Shown: one piece after another, positions 1,256 to 11,593 of the stretch | Numbering within the stretch: position 1 is the first letter of the stretch | Layout of the letters: each line of letters starts with the position of its first letter | Source of the DNA: an uncultured Eubacteriales bacterium | Lineage (GTDB): Bacteria > Bacillota > Clostridia > Lachnospirales > Lachnospiraceae | Reading direction: 5' to 3' | Length of the DNA: 11,593 bases | Assembly (NCBI GenBank): GCA_900313765.1 | Contig: OMSN01000040.1 | Span: forward strand, 1-11,593 | Translations under genes and position numbers: made by a program | Notes under the pieces: generated by a model | What the model was told of the DNA's origin: nothing | Databases searched by the model: none | The model's input: the letters and a program-made list of their open reading frames with translations, nothing else

Positions 1256-4200
1256 TTATTCTTCTTCGTCCGGAATCTCTGCCAGAACCTCTTCTGTGAC
1301 AGCGTCGCTGCTGCCCTCTTCTCCTTCGAAGATTCCATCCTCTTCAGGGAACATGACAGGCTCTGTCTTCTCGATCTCAACACTGCGGTAGCGCTTCATA
1401 CCGGTTCCTGCCGGGATCAGCTTACCGATGATAACGTTCTCCATCGGTCCGACCAGGTGGTCGACTTTACCCTTGATGGCTGCATCTGTGAGGACCTTCG
1501 TGGTCTCCTGGAAGGATGCCGCGCTCAGGAAGGATTCGGTTGCCAGTGATGCTTTCGTGATACCGAGAAGGATCTGCGTGCAGGTTGCAGGCTCCAGACC
1601 TTCTTCCTCAAGTCTTCTGTTGATCTCATCAAACTCGAGGGCATCTACTTTGGTTCCGGGGAGCAGCTGCGAATCGCCTGAGGTATTGACCTCGACCTTC
1701 TTCAGCATCTGGCGCACAAGGACCTCGATATGCTTATCCGAGATCTCAACACCCTGCAGACGGTAGACACGCTGAACTTCCTTGAGCAGGTAATCCTGTA
1801 CAGCGTCCACGCCCTTGATCTTCAGCAGATCGTGCGGGTTGATGGAACCTTCGGTCAGCTGGTCTCCGGCCTTGACGATGGTACCATCGCCAAGATGTGT
1901 GCCGTCGGGAAGCTTCTTCAGCTCCGTTCCGTAGGTATGGAGATACGCCTTGGAATTGCCCGTCTCCGGATCAATGACGACGATCTCTTCCTTCTTTTTA
2001 TTCTGTCTGATCTCGACTACACCGTCGATCTCAGAGATGATGCACATTCCTTTCGGCTTTCTTGCCTCAAACAGCTCCTCGACACGGGGAAGACCCTGTG
2101 TGATATCGCCGCCTGCAACACCGCCGGTATGGAATGTTCTCATGGTCAGCTGTGTACCGGGTTCACCGATGGACTGTGCAGCGATGATGCCGACCGGTTC
2201 GCCTACCTGTACCGGCTCGCCGGTTGCCATGTTGGAACCATAGCACTTCGCGCAGATACCGACTCTGCTGCGGCAGGTAAGGATCGTGCGGATCTTCACC
2301 TTCTGAACCGGGCAGTTGCCGTCCGCATCTACACCTTCCTCCATGATCCGCTCTGCTCTGGAGCGTGTGATCATGTGGTTCGCCTTCACAAGGACTTCTC
2401 CATCCTTGTTGCAGATCGTCTCAGCGGCATAGCGGCCGGTGATCCTCTCGCGCAGGCTCTCGATCTCCTCCTTGCCGTAGGCAAACTTGCGAATATAACG
2501 GCCGGGGATCTCATCTCTTCCTTCCGTACAATCCTTCTCACGGATGATCAGATCCTGTGAGACGACAACCATACGTCTGGTAAGGTAACCGGAGTCAGCA
2601 GTACGAAGAGCGGTATCGGACAGACCTTTACGCGCACCATGCGCACTCATGAAGTACTCCAGAACGTCAAGACCTTCACGGAAGTTGGACTTGATCGGAA
2701 GTTCGATCGTATGACCGGTCGTATCCGCCATCAGTCCGCGCATGCCGGCCAGCTGCTTGATCTGCTTGTCAGAACCGCGGGCTCCGGAGTCTGCCATCAT
2801 GTAGATGTTGTTGTACTTATCCAGACCATCGAGCAGGTATCTTGTCAGAGTCTGGTCTGTTTCCTTCCAGGTCTCGACAACTGCCTTATAACGGTCATCC
2901 TCATTGGAGAAGCCTCTTCTGTGCATCAGGTTGATGCGGTCCACATCTTCCTGTGCCTTCTTCAGCAGCTCTTCCTTCTGTGCCGGAACCGTCATATCGG
3001 AGATCGAAACCGTCATGCCGGCTCTTGTGGAGTAGCCATAGCCCATTGCCTTGATATGGTCAAGAACTTCCGCCGTCCTGGTTGCACCATGGATATTAAT
3101 GACCTTCTCAAGGATCTTCTTCAGATCCTTCTTCTTGACCAGCTGGTCTACTTCAAGCTTGAGTTCATTTTCTGGATCCCTGCGATCCACAAATCCAAGA
3201 TCCTGCGGGATGATCTCGTTGAACAGGAATCTTCCCAGTGTCGATTCTACGATGCCGCACTTCACGGTTCCGTCCGGCATCTCCTTCTCCACGCGGACCT
3301 TGATCCTGGACTGAAGGGTGATCACTTTGTTCTCGTAGGCAAGGATCGCTTCGTTGATATTCTTGTATACGCCGCCCTCGCCCTTTGCTCCGGGTCTTTC
3401 CTGTGTCAGGTAATAGATTCCCAGAACCATATCCTGTGACGGAACCGCAACCGGGCCGCCGTCAGAGGGCTTCAGCAGGTTGTTCGGCGAGAGCATCAGG
3501 AAGCGGCACTCTGCCTGTGCTTCCACGCTCAGCGGAAGGTGAACAGCCATCTGGTCACCGTCGAAGTCTGCATTGAATGCGGTACAGACCAGCGGATGAA
3601 GCTTGATCGCCTTACCTTCGACAAGGATCGGCTCAAATGCCTGGATACCAAGTCTGTGCAGTGTAGGAGCACGGTTCAGCATGACCGGATGCTCTCTGAT
3701 CACATCTTCCAGAACGTCCCAGACTTCGCCTTCCAGACGCTCAACCATCTTCTTGGCATTCTTGATATTGTGGCTGATGCCTCTCTGTACCAGTTCCTTC
3801 ATAACGAAGGGTTTGAACAGCTCGATGGCCATCTCCTTCGGCAGACCGCACTGATAGATCTTCAGTTCGGGGCCGACGACAATAACAGAACGTCCTGAAT
3901 AGTCAACACGCTTGCCCAGCAGATTCTGACGGAAACGTCCGCTCTTTCCCTTGAGCATGTCAGACAGGGACTTCAGGGAACGGTTGCCGGGGCCAGTGAC
4001 CGGGCGGCCTCTGCGGCCGTTATCGATCAGGGCGTCGACTGCTTCCTGCAGCATACGTTTCTCATTGCGGACGATGATGTCCGGAGCACCAAGCTCGAGA
4101 AGACGGGACAGTCTGTTGTTTCTGTTGATGATTCTTCTGTACAGATCATTGAGGTCACTGGTCGCGAAGCGGCCGCCGTCCAGCTGTACCATCGGGCGCA

Positions 4201-4963
4201 GATCGGGCGGAATGACCGGGATCACGTTCAGGACCATCCACTCCGGCTTATTTCCGGATTCGCGGAATGCTTCCACGACTTCAAGGCGCTTGATGATCTT
4301 GGCAGATTTCTGGCTGGTCGCTGTCTCCAGCTCCTTGCGAAGCTGTACGCTCAGCTCTTCCAGATCCAGATCCTTCAGCAGCTGCTGCACGGATTCTGCA
4401 CCCATACCTGCCTTGAACGCATTCGGTCCAAGTTCAGCGCGAAGTTCCTGATAGCGGACCTCGCCCATGATCTCTTTATAATGAAGACCGGTGATCGCGG
4501 TGTCGCCCGGATCCAGGACTACATAGCTTGCAAAATAGAGCACCTTCTCCAGATCCTTCGGAGACATGTCCAGGATGAGACCCATTCTGGACGGGATGCC
4601 CTTGAAGTACCAGATATGAGATACGGGAGCTGCAAGAACGATGCAGCCCATGCGCTCTCTGCGGACAGAACTCTTCGTAACCTCGACGCCGCAGCGGTCG
4701 CAGATCACACCCTTATACCTGATCTTCTTGAACTTGCCGCAATGGCATTCCCAGTCCTTGCTCGGCCCGAAAATGCGCTCGCAGAAGAGTCCGTCTGTCT
4801 CAGGTTTCAGCGTTCTGTAATTGATGGTCTCCGGCTTCTTGACTTCGCCGAGCATCTTATTTCTGGTAGCCCACTCACGAATCTTTTCCGGGGAAGCCAG
4901 TCCGATCTTAATCGCATCAAAAGTCATAGACTGATAAACTTCATTTGTCGTATTATCCGGCAT
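1256..4963 (-). CDS. rpoC: DNA-directed RNA polymerase subunit beta'
   Basis: This is the beta' subunit of core RNA polymerase, which carries the catalytic magnesium and clamps DNA. I chose ATG 4963 ([12 protein letters not shown]..., 1235 aa) because AGGAG lies seven bases upstream; a TTG 33 bases further up only overlaps rpoB. Seen in order: the N-terminal zinc site C73, C75, C88, C91; the catalytic motif NADFDGD with D466, D468 and D470; the bridge helix around 756-795 ([19 protein letters not shown]); the second zinc site C812, C897, C904, C907; and the trigger loop around 933-950 ([13 protein letters not shown]). The acidic C-terminal tail ends in IPDEEE. The length is close to the B. 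subtilis protein (1199 aa), with no large insertion. It is co-transcribed with rpoB and followed by a strong terminator. All key residues are present and nothing suggests damage. Confidence 0.99.
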
Positions 4964-4976
4964 GAATGGTCTCCTT

Positions 4977-7900
4977 TCACTCGTTGTCTTCGCCAAAATC
5001 CGCGAAGCTGTCAGCTACCTCATCATCCGTATCGCCGTAGTCATCCTCGATGTCATCACTGAAGACAACACCTGTATCAGGCAGCTCAGAATCCACCTCT
5101 TCTCCATCCACCACTTCCTTGGTGGAGAAGCCGGCCTGCTCGAGTGATGCGCGGGATGTGTCATTCTGCTGACCGAATCTGCGATCATCGTCCAGAATGT
5201 GGCGCATATCGGTATCGCCGTAATCCACGCTCTCGATCAGTTTAACCTCGCTTCCGTCATCCTTGAGGACACGGACATCCAGCGCCAGGGACTGCAGTTC
5301 CTTCAGAAGTACCTTGAAGGACTCCGGAATACCCGGTTCAGGAATGTTCTCACCCTTGATGATCGCTTCATACGTCTTCACACGGCCGATCACATCATCC
5401 GACTTCACGGTAAGGATCTCCTGCAGTGTGTAGGATGCGCCGTACGCCTCGAGAGCCCAGACTTCCATCTCTCCGAAACGCTGTCCGCCGAACTGGGCCT
5501 TGCCGCCCAGAGGCTGCTGCGTAACGAGTGAGTAAGGACCGGTCGAGCGGGCATGGATCTTATCGTCGACCAGATGGTGCAGCTTCAGATAGTTCATGTG
5601 TCCGATCGTTGTCGGGCCGTCAAACGGCTCGCCGGTACGTCCGTCACGAAGCTGGACCTTACCGTCGCGATGGATCGGAACGCCCTTCCACAGCTCTCTG
5701 TGATCACGGTTGTCGTACAGATACTCCAGCACGGAGGGAAGCAGTTCGCCTTCATGCTTTTCCTTGAACTCATCCCACTCCATGTTGACATAGTCGTTGG
5801 CAAGTTCCAGGGTATCCTGAATGTCTTTTTCATTTGCGCCGTCAAATACCGGCGTCGCAATGTTGAAGCCAAGTGCCATGGCGGCAAGGCTCAGATGGAT
5901 CTCCAGGACCTGTCCGATATTCATACGGCTGGGAACGCCAAGCGGGTTCAGCACGATATCGAGCGGACGTCCGTTCGGAAGGAACGGCATGTCTTCGATC
6001 GGAAGGACTCTGGAAACAACACCCTTGTTTCCGTGACGGCCTGCCATCTTGTCGCCAACAGAGATCTTTCTCTTCTGAGCGATATAGATACGGACCGACT
6101 GGTTGACACCCGGTGACAGCTCATCACCGTTCTCTCTGGTGAATACCTTTGCGGCAACAACGATACCGTACTCGCCGTGAGGTACCTTGAGGGAAGTGTC
6201 TCTTACTTCTCTTGCCTTCTCACCGAAGATCGCTCTGAGCAGTCTCTCTTCGGCTGTCAGTTCTGTCTCGCCCTTCGGTGTGACTTTACCGACCAGGATA
6301 TCGCCTGCGCGGACTTCTGCACCGATGCGGATGATTCCGCGCTCGTCCAGATCCTTCAGAGCATCCTCGCCAACGCCCGGAACATCTCTTGTGATCTCTT
6401 CCGGACCGAGTTTGGTATCTCTGGACTCTGCCTCATACTCCTCGATATGAATGGAAGTATAGACATCATCCATGACCAGACGCTCGCTGAGCAGGACAGC
6501 ATCCTCATAGTTATAACCTTCCCAGGTCATGAATCCGATCAGCGGGTTCTTGCCCAGTGCCAGCTCGCCGTTCGATGTGGAAGCGCCGTCTGCGATGATA
6601 TCGCCCTCTTCCACGACATCGCCCTTGAAGACGATCGGTCTCTGGTTGTAGCAGTTGGACTGGTTGCTGCGCACATATTTGCGAAGATGATATTCATCCT
6701 TCTTGCCGTCGTCTGTGCGGATGATAATGCGGTTCGCCTCAGCGCGCTCTACCACACCTGCATGCTTTGCAAGTACGCAGACGCCGGAGTCGACAGCTGC
6801 CTTCACTTCCATGCCGGTACCGACAGCTGCAGCCTCTGTGGTCAGAAGCGGAACTGCCTGTCTCTGCATGTTGGATCCCATCAGAGCACGGTTCGCGTCA
6901 TCGTTCTGAAGGAACGGGATCAGTGCCGTTGCCACTGAGAAGACCATTCTCGGAGATACGTCCATGTACTCGAACATGGTCTTGGGATACTGCTGCGTCT
7001 GGTCGCGGAAACGACCGGACACGTTCTTATTGATGAAATAACCATTCTCGTCCAGTTTGGTATTCGCCTGTGCGATATGGTAATTATCCTCTTCATCCGC
7101 TGTCATGTAGACAACTTCATTGGTGACACGCGGATTGGCAGGATCCGTACGGTCAACCTTGCGGTACGGAGCTTCCACGAATCCGTACTTATTGATACGG
7201 GCATAGCATGCCAGTGAGTTGATCAGACCGATGTTCGGTCCTTCAGGTGTCTCGATCGGGCACATACGTCCGTAATGGGAATAGTGGACATCTCGAACCT
7301 CGAATCCGGCACGGTCTCTTGAAAGTCCGCCGGGGCCGAGTGCGGAAAGACGTCTCTTATGTGTCAGTTCGGACAGCGGGTTGTTCTGGTCCATGAACTG
7401 AGACAGCTGGGAAGATCCGAAGAATTCCTTGACCGCTGCAGTCACGGGCTTGATGTTGATCAGGGACTGAGGTGTGATCCCCTCGATCTCCTGCGTTGTC
7501 ATACGCTCGCGGACGACTCTCTCCAGACGGCTCAGGCCGATACGGTACTGATTCTGAAGAAGTTCTCCGACAGCACGGATACGGCGGTTTCCAAGATGAT
7601 CGATGTCATCGCTGTTGCCGATGCCATATTCCAGATGCATGTTGTAGTTGATGGATGCGAGGATATCTTCCCTGGTAATATTCTTCGGGATCAGGTCATG
7701 GATATGCGCACGCACATCTTCCCTGGCCGCCTCCTCATTCAGAACTCCGTCTGCGGAATTGCGCTCAAGGAGCTGTGCAAGGTACGGATAGTAGACCAGC
7801 TCGGTGATGCCGAGTTCTTCCGGCTCACAGTCCAGATACTCCTTCAGGTCAACCATCATATTGGAAAGAACGCGTACATTGCGCTCTTCCGTTGCAAGCA

Positions 7901-9043: not shown

Positions 9044-9919
9044 TTACCCGGCGCTGCCGGCCTGCGCGAAATAAGCGTCAATGCCAGCCTTCAGTCCCTT
9101 CGCGTACCTGGCGCAGGATTCCTGCGAATGGTCACTCGCCCGGTCTCCAAGTTCTATATCCATGCTCGGAATGGTGGAATAGGATGTCTGGGTCAGATCC
9201 ATCGGAAGGCTTCCTCCCTGGAAGACGTTGACTCCTTCCTTCTGCAGTCCCTCTACCAGCGCCTTCCCCAGCGCTTCATGCTGCTGCCAGTGGGAGGCGA
9301 CCGGTTCCATGCTTCGGTAGGAAGCCACATCCGGCACACTGCAGTAGAAACATCCTTTATTGCTGTCCGTGGAATCAAAATGAATCGCAACGTGGATGTC
9401 CGCACAGTTGTTTGCCATGACCGTACGGGCGATGTTATCCAGCTGCACATCATCACTCTCCCGAATCATCAGGACATCATATCCGTCTTCAAGGAGCAGC
9501 TTCTTCAGCTCCATTGCAACCTGAAGATTCACGGAAGCTTCCGTTGCCCCATCGAGAAAGGTCATCCCGGTGGAGATCGCTGTGGAATTCACCTGTCCCT
9601 GGGCAGTCGTCCCGCCGGTCACCTTCGGAGTTCCGTCCGGATGGCTGAGAGTCTGGGCGCTCTCCCCTCCGCGGGTTCCATGCCCTGCATTGACACATAC
9701 GGTATGGTTCTTCCTGGGAGCTGAGTCTTCACTGGCTGTGTACAGTTCTGCGCTGCCGGTATGGATCACCGAGTTTCCCGCATAGGTCCAGTTCGTATCA
9801 AATGCCACTGCTCCAGCCTTCCTCTCCTGTACAGTCTCTGCACAGACCGCCATGGTTCCCGTCAAAAGCATCGCCGCCAAAGCCCATGTCATGTGCCTGA
9901 TCAGTCTCATCTGTCTCAT
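9044..9919 (-). CDS. Secreted N-acetylmuramoyl-L-alanine amidase (Amidase_3 family)
   Basis: This zinc enzyme cleaves the bond between N-acetylmuramic acid and L-alanine in peptidoglycan, outside the membrane. The start at ATG 9919 (MRQMRLIRHM..., 291 aa) is preferred because AGGAG lies about eight bases upstream; an ATG at 9937 has no ribosome site. Residues 1-27 form a signal peptide (basic start, hydrophobic ALAAMLLTGTMAV, likely cut after AVCA). No lipobox is clear. The Amidase_3 catalytic set is visible: H80 in VNAGHG, E127 in GATEASVNL, H180 in VAIHFDS, and catalytic E256 in PSMDIELGD. No SH3, LysM or other wall-binding domain is present, so it is a minimal enzyme. It lies between rplL and rpoB, an unusual place for a wall hydrolase. 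No convincing terminator separates it from rpoB, so its transcript may read into rpoBC. The exact role (cell separation, germination or wall turnover) cannot be told. Confidence 0.93.
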   Translation of the reverse strand: MRQMRLIRHMTWALAAMLLTGTMAVCAETVQERKAGAVAFDTNWTYAGNSVIHTGSAELYTASEDSAPRKNHTVCVNAGHGTRGGESAQTLSHPDGTPKVTGGTTAQGQVNSTAISTGMTFLDGATEASVNLQVAMELKKLLLEDGYDVLMIRESDDVQLDNIARTVMANNCADIHVAIHFDSTDSNKGCFYCSVPDVASYRSMEPVASHWQQHEALGKALVEGLQKEGVNVFQGGSLPMDLTQTSYSTIPSMDIELGDRASDHSQESCARYAKGLKAGIDAYFAQAGSAG

Positions 9920-9950
9920 ATCCTTTTCTCCTGTCATGATTATTGTTCTG

Positions 9951-10079: not shown

Positions 10080-10455
10080 TTATTTCAGGGTAACCTTTGC
10101 TCCCTGCTCTTCCAGCTTAGCCTTCAGCTCATCAGCCTCAGCCTTGGAGACCTGCTCCTTGACAACCTTCGGAGCACCGTCAACAACGTCCTTAGCTTCC
10201 TTCAGTCCAAGACCGGTAGCTTCACGGACAACCTTGATAACCTTAACCTTGTTCGGGCCAACCTCAGTCAGCTCAACGTCGAACTCGGTCTTCTCTTCAA
10301 CTTCTTCTGCAGCTGCTGCAGGACCTGCAACAACAACACCCGCTGCTGCGGATACACCAAACTCTTCCTCACAAGCCTTAACCAGCTCGTTCAGCTCCAT
10401 AACCACTCAGTTCCTTGATCGCTTCGATAAACTCAGCAGTTGTAAGCTTAGCCAT
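10080..10455 (-). CDS. rplL: 50S ribosomal protein L7/L12, with an apparent one-base frameshift at codon 18
   Basis: L7/L12 forms the flexible ribosomal stalk that recruits and stimulates translation GTPases. The genuine start is ATG 10455 ([17 protein letters not shown]) with AGGAGGA upstream. After codon 17 there is one base too many (GG at 10403-10404 on the complementary strand, AGTGGTTATG where AGTGTTATG is expected). The start frame then gives only GYGAERAG and stops at 10380-10378, a 25-residue peptide. The remaining protein, [15 protein letters not shown] through GAKVTLK, is intact in the other frame and is near consensus: an Ala-rich hinge, then the C-terminal GTPase-binding domain with [12 protein letters not shown]. 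Repairing the base gives 124 residues, a normal length. The break falls in the N-terminal dimerisation and L10-binding domain. The gene is usually single-copy, so a sequencing or assembly error is most likely. Restart at GTG 10406 or ATG 10400 would give a stalk protein lacking that domain. Confidence 0.93.
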
Positions 10456-10496
10456 GATAATGATTCCTCCTGTTTTATTTGGATATTTTTACGAAA

Positions 10497-11033
10497 TTAC
10501 TCTGCCGCCGGTGCGGTTTCTTCTGCCGGTGCGGACTCGGCTGCTGCCGGGTCGTCCTTCTCGGCAATCTGCTTGACGACTCTTGCGAAGTTCGCAACCG
10601 GGCTCTGCATAGAGCCAAACAGTCTTCCAAGCAGGACTTCCCTTGTCGGGACATCTGCCAGTGCGAGCACTCCAGCCTCGTCATAGAACTTGCCCTCGAC
10701 TACGCCACCTACCAGATGGATCGTCGGATTCGCCTTGAAATGCTTCTTGATGATGCGTGACGGTGCAGTTGCATCATCCTTGGAGATCGCCAGAGCATTT
10801 GCACCATGAAGATGCGCGCACAGCGGTTCAAACTCCGTTCCCTTGAAGGCGAAATTCATCATCGTGTTCTTGCATACCTTGTAGGTGATGCCGGCTTCAC
10901 GCAGCTCCTTACGAAGTGCAGTATCGCCTGCAACGTTGATCCCAAGGTAATTGACAAGAACGACAGCGTCAGCATCCTTGACACTTGCTGCGATCTCTTC
11001 CACGATGGGCTGTTTCAGTTCCACTTTTGCCAT
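10497..11033 (-). CDS. rplJ: 50S ribosomal protein L10
   Basis: L10 anchors the L7/L12 dimers to 23S rRNA at the base of the stalk and, with L12, is the known autoregulator of its operon. The start at ATG 11033 (MAKVELKQPIVEEI, 178 aa) has AGGAGGT at a 7-base spacing; the ATG six bases earlier is too close to that site, and a much longer frame starting at 11120 would run through the leader RNA. Seen: the N-terminal L10 globular domain with VVLVNYLGINVAGDTALRKE and ITYKVCKNTMM, then GMxSPVANF-like SMQSPVANFARVVKQI, which begins the C-terminal L7/L12-binding helix, and an Ala/Glu/Pro tail. The length is typical of Firmicutes (about 165-180). It lies 41 bases upstream of rplL and downstream of an L10 leader RNA. 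All expected parts are present. Confidence 0.98.
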   Translation of the reverse strand: MAKVELKQPIVEEIAASVKDADAVVLVNYLGINVAGDTALRKELREAGITYKVCKNTMMNFAFKGTEFEPLCAHLHGANALAISKDDATAPSRIIKKHFKANPTIHLVGGVVEGKFYDEAGVLALADVPTREVLLGRLFGSMQSPVANFARVVKQIAEKDDPAAAESAPAEETAPAAE

Positions 11034-11079
11034 AACCATTACCTCCTTATAGATTTTGTAATGACCGCAAAAGAGAAAT

Positions 11080-11113
11080 AAAAAACGCCGTTCCGCGAAA
11101 ACACGAAAAGGCG
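11080..11113 (-). terminator. Attenuator hairpin at the end of the L10 leader
   Basis: CGCC...GGCG encloses an inner TTC-GTG / CGC-GAA stem with small internal loops and a TTTT loop (11113-11086), followed directly by six T residues (11085-11080). This is a classic intrinsic terminator lying 47 bases before the rplJ start. It would be favoured when L10 is bound to the leader; the upstream AATTCTTTGAATGTTCGCG stretch could form the competing structure. Confidence 0.75.
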
Positions 11114-11195
11114 CGAACATTCAAAGAATTCACACTTCCTCGGCAGGCGCATCTCGCATTATACCCTCTCGGGAACCTGCTGTCTTCGGCAGTCA
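11080..11195 (-). ncRNA. Ribosomal L10 leader (autoregulatory mRNA element)
   Basis: The transcript contains GACTGCCGAAGACAGCAGG (from about 11193) and, after a CCCGAGAGGG hairpin, CCTGCCGAGGAAG near 11147-11135. These match the conserved blocks of the Firmicute L10 leader, which L10(L12)4 binds to repress rplJL. GCAGG (11180-11176) pairs with CCTGC (11147-11143) to close the element. It ends in an attenuator-like hairpin. The position just downstream of the promoter and upstream of rplJ fits. Confidence 0.87.
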
Positions 11196-11204
11196 TCGTG
11201 TTGT

Positions 11205-11233
11205 ACTCTATCACCATGGGATGAAGATGTCAA
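11205..11233 (-). promoter_or_regulatory. Promoter of the rplJ-rplL unit
   Basis: TTGACA (11233-11228), a 17-bp spacer, then TAGAGT (11210-11205) preceded by TGA, an extended -10 motif. The start of transcription would be near 11198, so the L10 leader begins almost at the 5' end of the RNA. This shows that rplJL is expressed on its own and not as the tail of an rplKA transcript. Confidence 0.82.
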
Positions 11234-11266
11234 GCCCGGAATTACGAATCCGCTGACACGATCGCT

Positions 11267-11449
11267 CTATTCCTTCAAAGCTTGATCTATGCTGCGGCCC
11301 GTAATAAACAACTTATAAACGACAAATAAGATCAGGAAGGCAGTGAAAGGCATGACATATGCAACATAGTGAAGGACCGAACCGGTACTGATAAACAGGT
11401 TGAACATCGCATGGAATGTTATCGGTACACAGGATCCGGCAGCAATCAA
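11267..11449 (-). pseudogene. C-terminal remnant of a polytopic membrane protein, possibly PrsW/CPBP-type intramembrane protease
   Basis: The frame can start only at TTG 11449, with no ribosome site, and has an in-frame TGA at 11461-11459. It encodes 60 residues with two hydrophobic segments (VPITFHAMFNLFIS and VAYVMPFTAFLILFVVYKLF) and a short tail ending SIDQALKE. The FHAMFNL motif resembles the last conserved His-containing helix of PrsW or CPBP family intramembrane proteases; this is a tentative match. The family proteins are 200 residues or more, so most of the gene is missing. No missing part is visible in other frames upstream. The remnant begins inside the T tract of the preceding terminator, which marks a deletion or rearrangement point. 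Its stop lies 34 bases before the rplJ -35 box. Confidence 0.4.
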
Positions 11450-11486
11450 AAGCGGGGATCAAAAGAACTTTTCTTTTGACCCCCGC
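11448..11486 (-). terminator. Terminator of the gene entering from the right edge
   Basis: GCGGGGATCAAAAGAA (11452-11467) and TTCTTTTGACCCCCGC (11471-11486) form a 16-bp stem with one G-U pair and a 3-base loop. On the minus strand it ends in TTTT (11451-11448). It lies about 47 bases after the stop at 11533. Confidence 0.8.
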
Positions 11487-11516
11487 CCTGGTGTCAGAAT
11501 CTCTGCGCTGTTCGCC

Positions 11517-11538
11517 GCCTGTTATTTGCCTGTTATTT
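11517..11538. repeat. Perfect 11-bp tandem duplication at the end of the edge gene
   Basis: GCCTGTTATTT occurs twice head to tail (11517-11527 and 11528-11538). The second copy contains the stop codon of the edge gene. It looks like a small slippage duplication. Confidence 0.7.
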
Positions 11539-11592
11539 CTTCAGAACCACTTTCTTCTTAGCCTTCAGGTTCTTCTTCGTAAAGCTCTTCTT
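11533..11592 (-). CDS. C-terminal 19 residues of an unidentified Lys-rich protein, cut by window edge
   Basis: The frame reads KKSFTKKNLKAKKKVVLKK and stops at TAA 11535-11533, followed by a terminator hairpin. Nine or more lysines in 19 residues recall the basic tails of some secreted repeat proteins or RNA-binding proteins, but no family can be named. A second frame (EEELYEEEPEG, stop near 11558) is also open; I prefer the Lys-rich one only because its stop is closer to the hairpin. It is not recognisable as rplA, which would be the expected neighbour of rplJ. Confidence 0.3.
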   Translation of the reverse strand, partial: KKSFTKKNLKAKKKVVLKK

Positions 11593-11593
11593 C

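Follow-up and report, generated by a model that had tools for sequence, protein, structure and literature searches.

Does the bacterium from which this DNA was sampled carry a broken gene for ribosomal protein L7/L12, or does the break belong to its draft genome? The stretch of DNA analysed, hereafter the window, is 11,593 nucleotides long and constitutes the entire contig 251 of a draft of 2.2 Mb in 346 contigs, 75% complete. Within it, the reading frame of rplL is interrupted by one extra G. Comparing sequences, we consider this base to be, with a probability of roughly 0.88, a draft-assembly artefact rather than a property of the organism; the sequence does contain the frame break, which the organism most probably lacks.

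The rplL frame and its surroundings

The features on which the analysis relies are as follows.

1256 to 4996, minus strand: rpoC, a single open frame of 1246 codons
4977 to 8891, minus strand: rpoB, a single open frame of 1304 codons
9044 to 9937, minus strand: Amidase_3 gene (PF01520) between rplL and rpoB, from its open frame and Pfam
10080 to 10406, minus strand: remainder of L7/L12, read in the neighbouring frame over 108 codons starting at GTG 10406, from its open frame and Pfam
10378 to 10455, minus strand: rplL start frame, from ATG 10455, 25 amino acids, ending in TAA 10380-10378
10403 to 10404, minus strand: GG pair, a single G in aligned relatives, and site of the frame break, from alignment and from the change-point with relatives G005 and G018
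10466 to 10471, minus strand: AGGAGG ribosome-binding site of the rplL ATG, read directly from the sequence
10497 to 11033, minus strand: rplJ (L10), a single open frame upstream of rplL, named from its translation
11072 to 11207, minus strand: L10 leader RNA (RF00557), 51.3 bits against a gathering score of 44

From its ATG, rplL runs through 17 expected codons to the GG pair, after which the start frame adds eight residues (GYGAERAG) before terminating. The preliminary description of this DNA had reported a one-base insertion here, and alignment bears it out: in each of the 29 relatives aligned, one G stands where the window has two. It had also described a 25-residue dead end beyond codon 17; the dead end stands, whereas the 25 residues make up the start-frame ORF in its entirety and the tail comprises only the eight. 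The neighbouring frame is open from GTG 10406, which a TGA immediately precedes, to a stop at 10082-10080. Pfam analysis of this 108-amino-acid frame recovered the complete C-terminal domain (PF00542, positions 1-67 of 67, 105.7 bits) and a dimerisation domain truncated towards its N terminus (PF16320, positions 14-45 of 48), compared with positions 1-45 in P0004, an intact L7/L12 protein.

The gene lies in an rplJ-rplL-rpoB-rpoC cluster with an L10 leader; we take rplJ, rpoB and rpoC to be correctly named from their translations. The rplJ start at 11033 is our choice, the ORF list beginning that frame at an earlier ATG, 11120. The gene at 9044-9937, encoding an N-acetylmuramoyl-L-alanine amidase, diverges fast: DNA identity was 59-84% per 100-base bin in the seven genus relatives in which it could be aligned (G005, G018, G010, G012, G007, G009 and G008). 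Downstream of rpoC, a GmrSD_N (PF03235) open frame at 2-721 runs off the left end of the window. Upstream of the L10 leader, at 11270-11458 on the minus strand, is a 63-codon open frame that had no Pfam match at E 0.001 and may resemble the end of a PrsW-like membrane protein; G005 has at this place a gene that, from its translation, we take to be rplA. Positions 11208-11593 had no DNA match at E 0.001 in the 18 other genus genomes and may represent a true rearrangement or another wrong join.

Intact L7/L12 in other assemblies and in relatives

A protein search with the 108-amino-acid frame, in which 7994 candidates sharing most words were scored and the best 120 listed, showed that an intact version of the window's L7/L12 exists in other assemblies. 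P0004, 124 amino acids long and present on 106 contigs, equals the 17 residues of the start frame followed by 107 residues of the neighbouring frame, letter for letter. This identity of both pieces excludes a chance resemblance, and the continuation of L7/L12 in the neighbouring frame, as previously proposed, is thereby confirmed.

The search also returned shortened and altered forms. P0016, of 106 amino acids, starts at the internal ATG 10400 and is found on two contigs; the longer measures 11593 bases, the window's own size, and the second may hold a copy truncated at its start, repeat the deposit of this record or be an independent occurrence. A protein of the kind that automated annotation had been expected to report if the base is an error, here 106 amino acids long, is already in the protein collection. 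A similarly short form from a sister lineage, P0100 (105 amino acids, six contigs), is known as a protein only, and contig ends or gene calling may explain its shortness. Three variants each occur on a single contig: P0001 to P0003 show an inserted repeated stretch (142 amino acids), a seven-residue gap and a single substitution adjacent to the break. The gap is that of P0002, where seven codons are absent and the missing stretch ends at the same residue as the break. These variants suggest further assembly faults in rplL.

At the DNA level, the extra G was absent from 29 of 29 other loci, which represent 29 of the 47 other matching genomes, loci having been fetched for those only. The best 80 of 551 confirmed loci in named genomes all read through the break site (79 according to a pattern script, and L036, missed by the pattern, according to its translation). 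The exact 35-base junction was found in no stretch of the named genome collection, which may omit the window's own genome. Within the genus, 16 of 19 genomes, that of the window included, had an rplL match. Eleven of the 15 others had one full-length, single-frame match, and G010 had, besides one full match, a 60-codon piece of 68% identity where a contig starts; in G007 and G012 the gene lay in two pieces at contig ends, and G014 yielded only a weak match, of 45%, containing a stop. In the family, 375 of 397 genomes matched. Among the 150 family matches listed, an internal stop and a start past residue 4 occurred in the window's alone; re-examination of odd family genomes revealed two more stops, one in G230 and one in G175, where the match runs to a contig end.

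The second frame has also retained its coding character relative to the nearest relatives. Over the 107 post-break codons, the window differs from G005, G018 and G010 at 7, 8 and 14 synonymous positions, respectively, and at 1, 1 and 3 nonsynonymous positions, with more differences of both kinds in more distant genus members. These counts make a long-standing pseudogene unlikely, and the lack of decay would be compatible with an artefact or with a lesion of very recent date. The latter would be a genuine mutation that arose very recently in the strain sampled and is tolerated through an intact second rplL, located in the quarter of the genome that is missing, or through a mixed population; a lesion that young is expected to show no decay either. 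Nevertheless, we regard it as unlikely, given that a single copy of rplL is the rule in the genus and that the intact P0004 is found on 106 contigs against two for the short P0016. A whole-genome check for a second copy, which the preliminary description had proposed, detected none by either domain; at 75% completeness a second copy could escape detection, so that its lack is weak evidence.

A change in similarity at the extra base

The resemblance of the window to its relatives changes within rplL. Relative to G005, 10 mismatches fall in the first 51 coding nucleotides and 8 in the 320 nucleotides after the break (p = 1.9e-5). This contrast is the largest of 91 pairs drawn from 14 genus sequences, the pairs not being independent of one another; the three largest contrasts all include the window, and the largest without it reached p = 0.094. 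The first 51 bases are nearest, among 13 relatives, to G017 (3 mismatches) and then to G008 (4). Over the 960 nucleotides of rplJ-rplL, the maximum-likelihood change-point lay at 10403 for G005 and G018 and at 10434 for G010, the third relative tested.

These data suggest a faulty join at a conserved stretch, and a plain base error would also fit. In the first form, the assembler would have joined two paths, representing alleles or co-occurring relatives, at the strongly conserved stretch around codons 14-40 of rplL, leaving one base too many at 10403-10404; in the alternative form, a plain one-base error would have arisen at the same site. Under either, the living cells would carry an ordinary, intact rplL encoding a 124-amino-acid L7/L12. 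Since the similarity profile shifts at the extra base, we rate a faulty contig join no less likely than a plain error. The absence of read support for the extra base and the join mechanism are both inferred rather than shown.

A strict chimera of two species was considered and is not shown, the flanking genes having the same nearest relative among those compared. G005 was the nearest of five relatives for rplJ, rpoB and rpoC (tied with G018 for rpoC), and its equal divergence of 12-13% on both flanks gives no sign that these come from clearly different organisms. The mosaic may instead be natural, the species' own sequence, because an intact protein with the same combination of residues, P0004, is common; the extra base would then be a separate, simple error. 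The occurrence of P0004 whole on 106 contigs likewise weakens the two-template form of the join.

Breaks of assemblies in rplL were encountered elsewhere. In G012, the end of one contig and the start of another both fall in the 35 bases corresponding to window positions 10386-10420, the two 34-base contig ends being identical save for one base, and in G007 contig ends overlap by 85 nucleotides elsewhere in the gene. We re-examined 12 of the 397 family genomes, picked for weak, double, cut or absent rplL matches. The gene was cut by a contig end in five (G116, G175, G265, G399 and G320), four had one full-length copy with a weak second match, and two had no match. The twelfth, G230, has an out-of-frame gap in mid-rplL on the 222-kb contig C16 (L155); this draft, from another genus, is rated 100% complete, and its rplL is without the conserved middle stretch. 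From these sequences, rplL looks like a spot prone to assembly breaks, a plausible reason being the close similarity of its DNA between co-occurring species.

Frame breaks elsewhere in the draft were surveyed through ABC_tran domains. Two of 95 were broken here compared with 1 of 203 in G005 and G018 combined (Fisher p = 0.24), the single case being a domain of G005 that seems to be split, to judge only by its two rows in the table, with none in G018; a general excess of frame breaks in the draft was rejected on this rate, which is not significantly raised. One of the two broken ABC transporter ATPases (L145, G000:C339:2300-4400) lies beside a 23-base direct repeat with 26-base spacing, a pattern typical of either a poorly merged overlap or a genuine short duplication, and the other (L146, G000:C135:3700-5600) is broken just past its Walker A motif. 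Partial ABC matches on C81 and C257 are single frames running to contig ends. Around the rplL break, no exact direct repeat of at least 9 bases with spacing of at most 149 was found within 10300-10520 as a candidate for slippage.

The preliminary description had taken a sequence error as the simplest reading. This is supported by the lack of the insertion in all 29 relatives and the intact P0004 on 106 contigs, and further by the undecayed second frame relative to the nearest relatives, by the lack of a recoding signal (see below) and by the fragmented and incomplete state of the genome, which we count in favour of an artefact.

Restart, frameshifting and comparison with known systems

Were the base real, the strain would lack the normal start of an important ribosomal protein, a striking case of recoding. 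That it makes its stalk protein through a +1 shift close to codon 18, or gets by with one that has no first helix, is in our judgement quite improbable.

Internal restart at GTG 10406 or ATG 10400 would give a stalk protein of 106-108 amino acids that lacks its first 17-18 residues. GTG 10406 is preceded, at a distance of 5 bases, by an AAGGA stretch, the frame is open to its end, and P0100, seen as a protein only, is comparably short and comes from a sister lineage. However, the AAGGA consists of Lys-Glu codons and is present in 13 of 14 other aligned genus loci, whose frames are unbroken there. Moreover, the product would retain only positions 14-45 of the dimerisation domain, a region that, according to PMC12548414, contains the dimer interface and uL10 site. 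The same paper describes the N-terminal domain as dimerising bL12 and holding the uL10 binding region and reports bL12 to be essential in one species (PMC12548414); a second paper calls the ribosomal stalk critical for translation factor recruitment (PMC10931766). A protein minus its first 17 residues would probably be impaired, and we consider restart very unlikely.

Restoration of the full protein by programmed or spontaneous +1 ribosomal frameshifting appears the least probable of the readings weighed. The two frames overlap openly for about nine codons, and a shift there could in principle yield a full-length protein. Nevertheless, the two-frame arrangement was seen in none of the compared relatives (29 other aligned loci and 80 loci in named genomes), and conserved recoding was rejected on that ground. 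Judging the codons by eye, we found no P-site codon in the overlap that re-pairs well after a +1 move, none on a known shift motif, and no slippery codon combined with a slow or stop codon in the A site, in agreement with the earlier statement that neither a stop codon nor a known slippery motif sits at the break. An RNA stimulator was likewise rejected, as the downstream fold is not exceptional (z = -1.73; 15 of 200 shuffles fold as well). A single literature search returned no paper on programmed frameshifting of the ribosomal protein gene rplL.

An assembly artefact, our preferred reading, calls for caution: short or split L7/L12 predictions in such drafts should not be taken as biology, because P0016 is already in the protein collection and rplL lies at contig ends in several related drafts.

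Compared with known systems, the locus resembles bL12 (L7/L12; rplL; PF00542 and PF16320) in that both domains are present across its two frames and in its order rplJ-rplL-rpoB-rpoC with an L10 leader; it differs in the frame broken after codon 17 and in the Amidase_3 gene between rplL and rpoB. Programmed +1 frameshifting of the prfB type involves an in-frame stop at a slippery codon. The window shares with it two overlapping frames that a +1 shift could join, but has no such stop at the break, and its arrangement is not conserved in the compared relatives. In form, the locus also resembles frameshift errors in metagenome-assembled genomes: a conserved gene, intact in other respects, has its frame broken by one base, and the draft is fragmented. 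For long-read assemblies, from which the window's platform may differ, one study states that predicted proteins are shortened by indel errors and that cases of this kind are generally errors, with some genuine pseudogenes (PMC13087279). The window departs from such errors in that its break coincides with a change in similarity, which suggests a join beyond base-calling noise.
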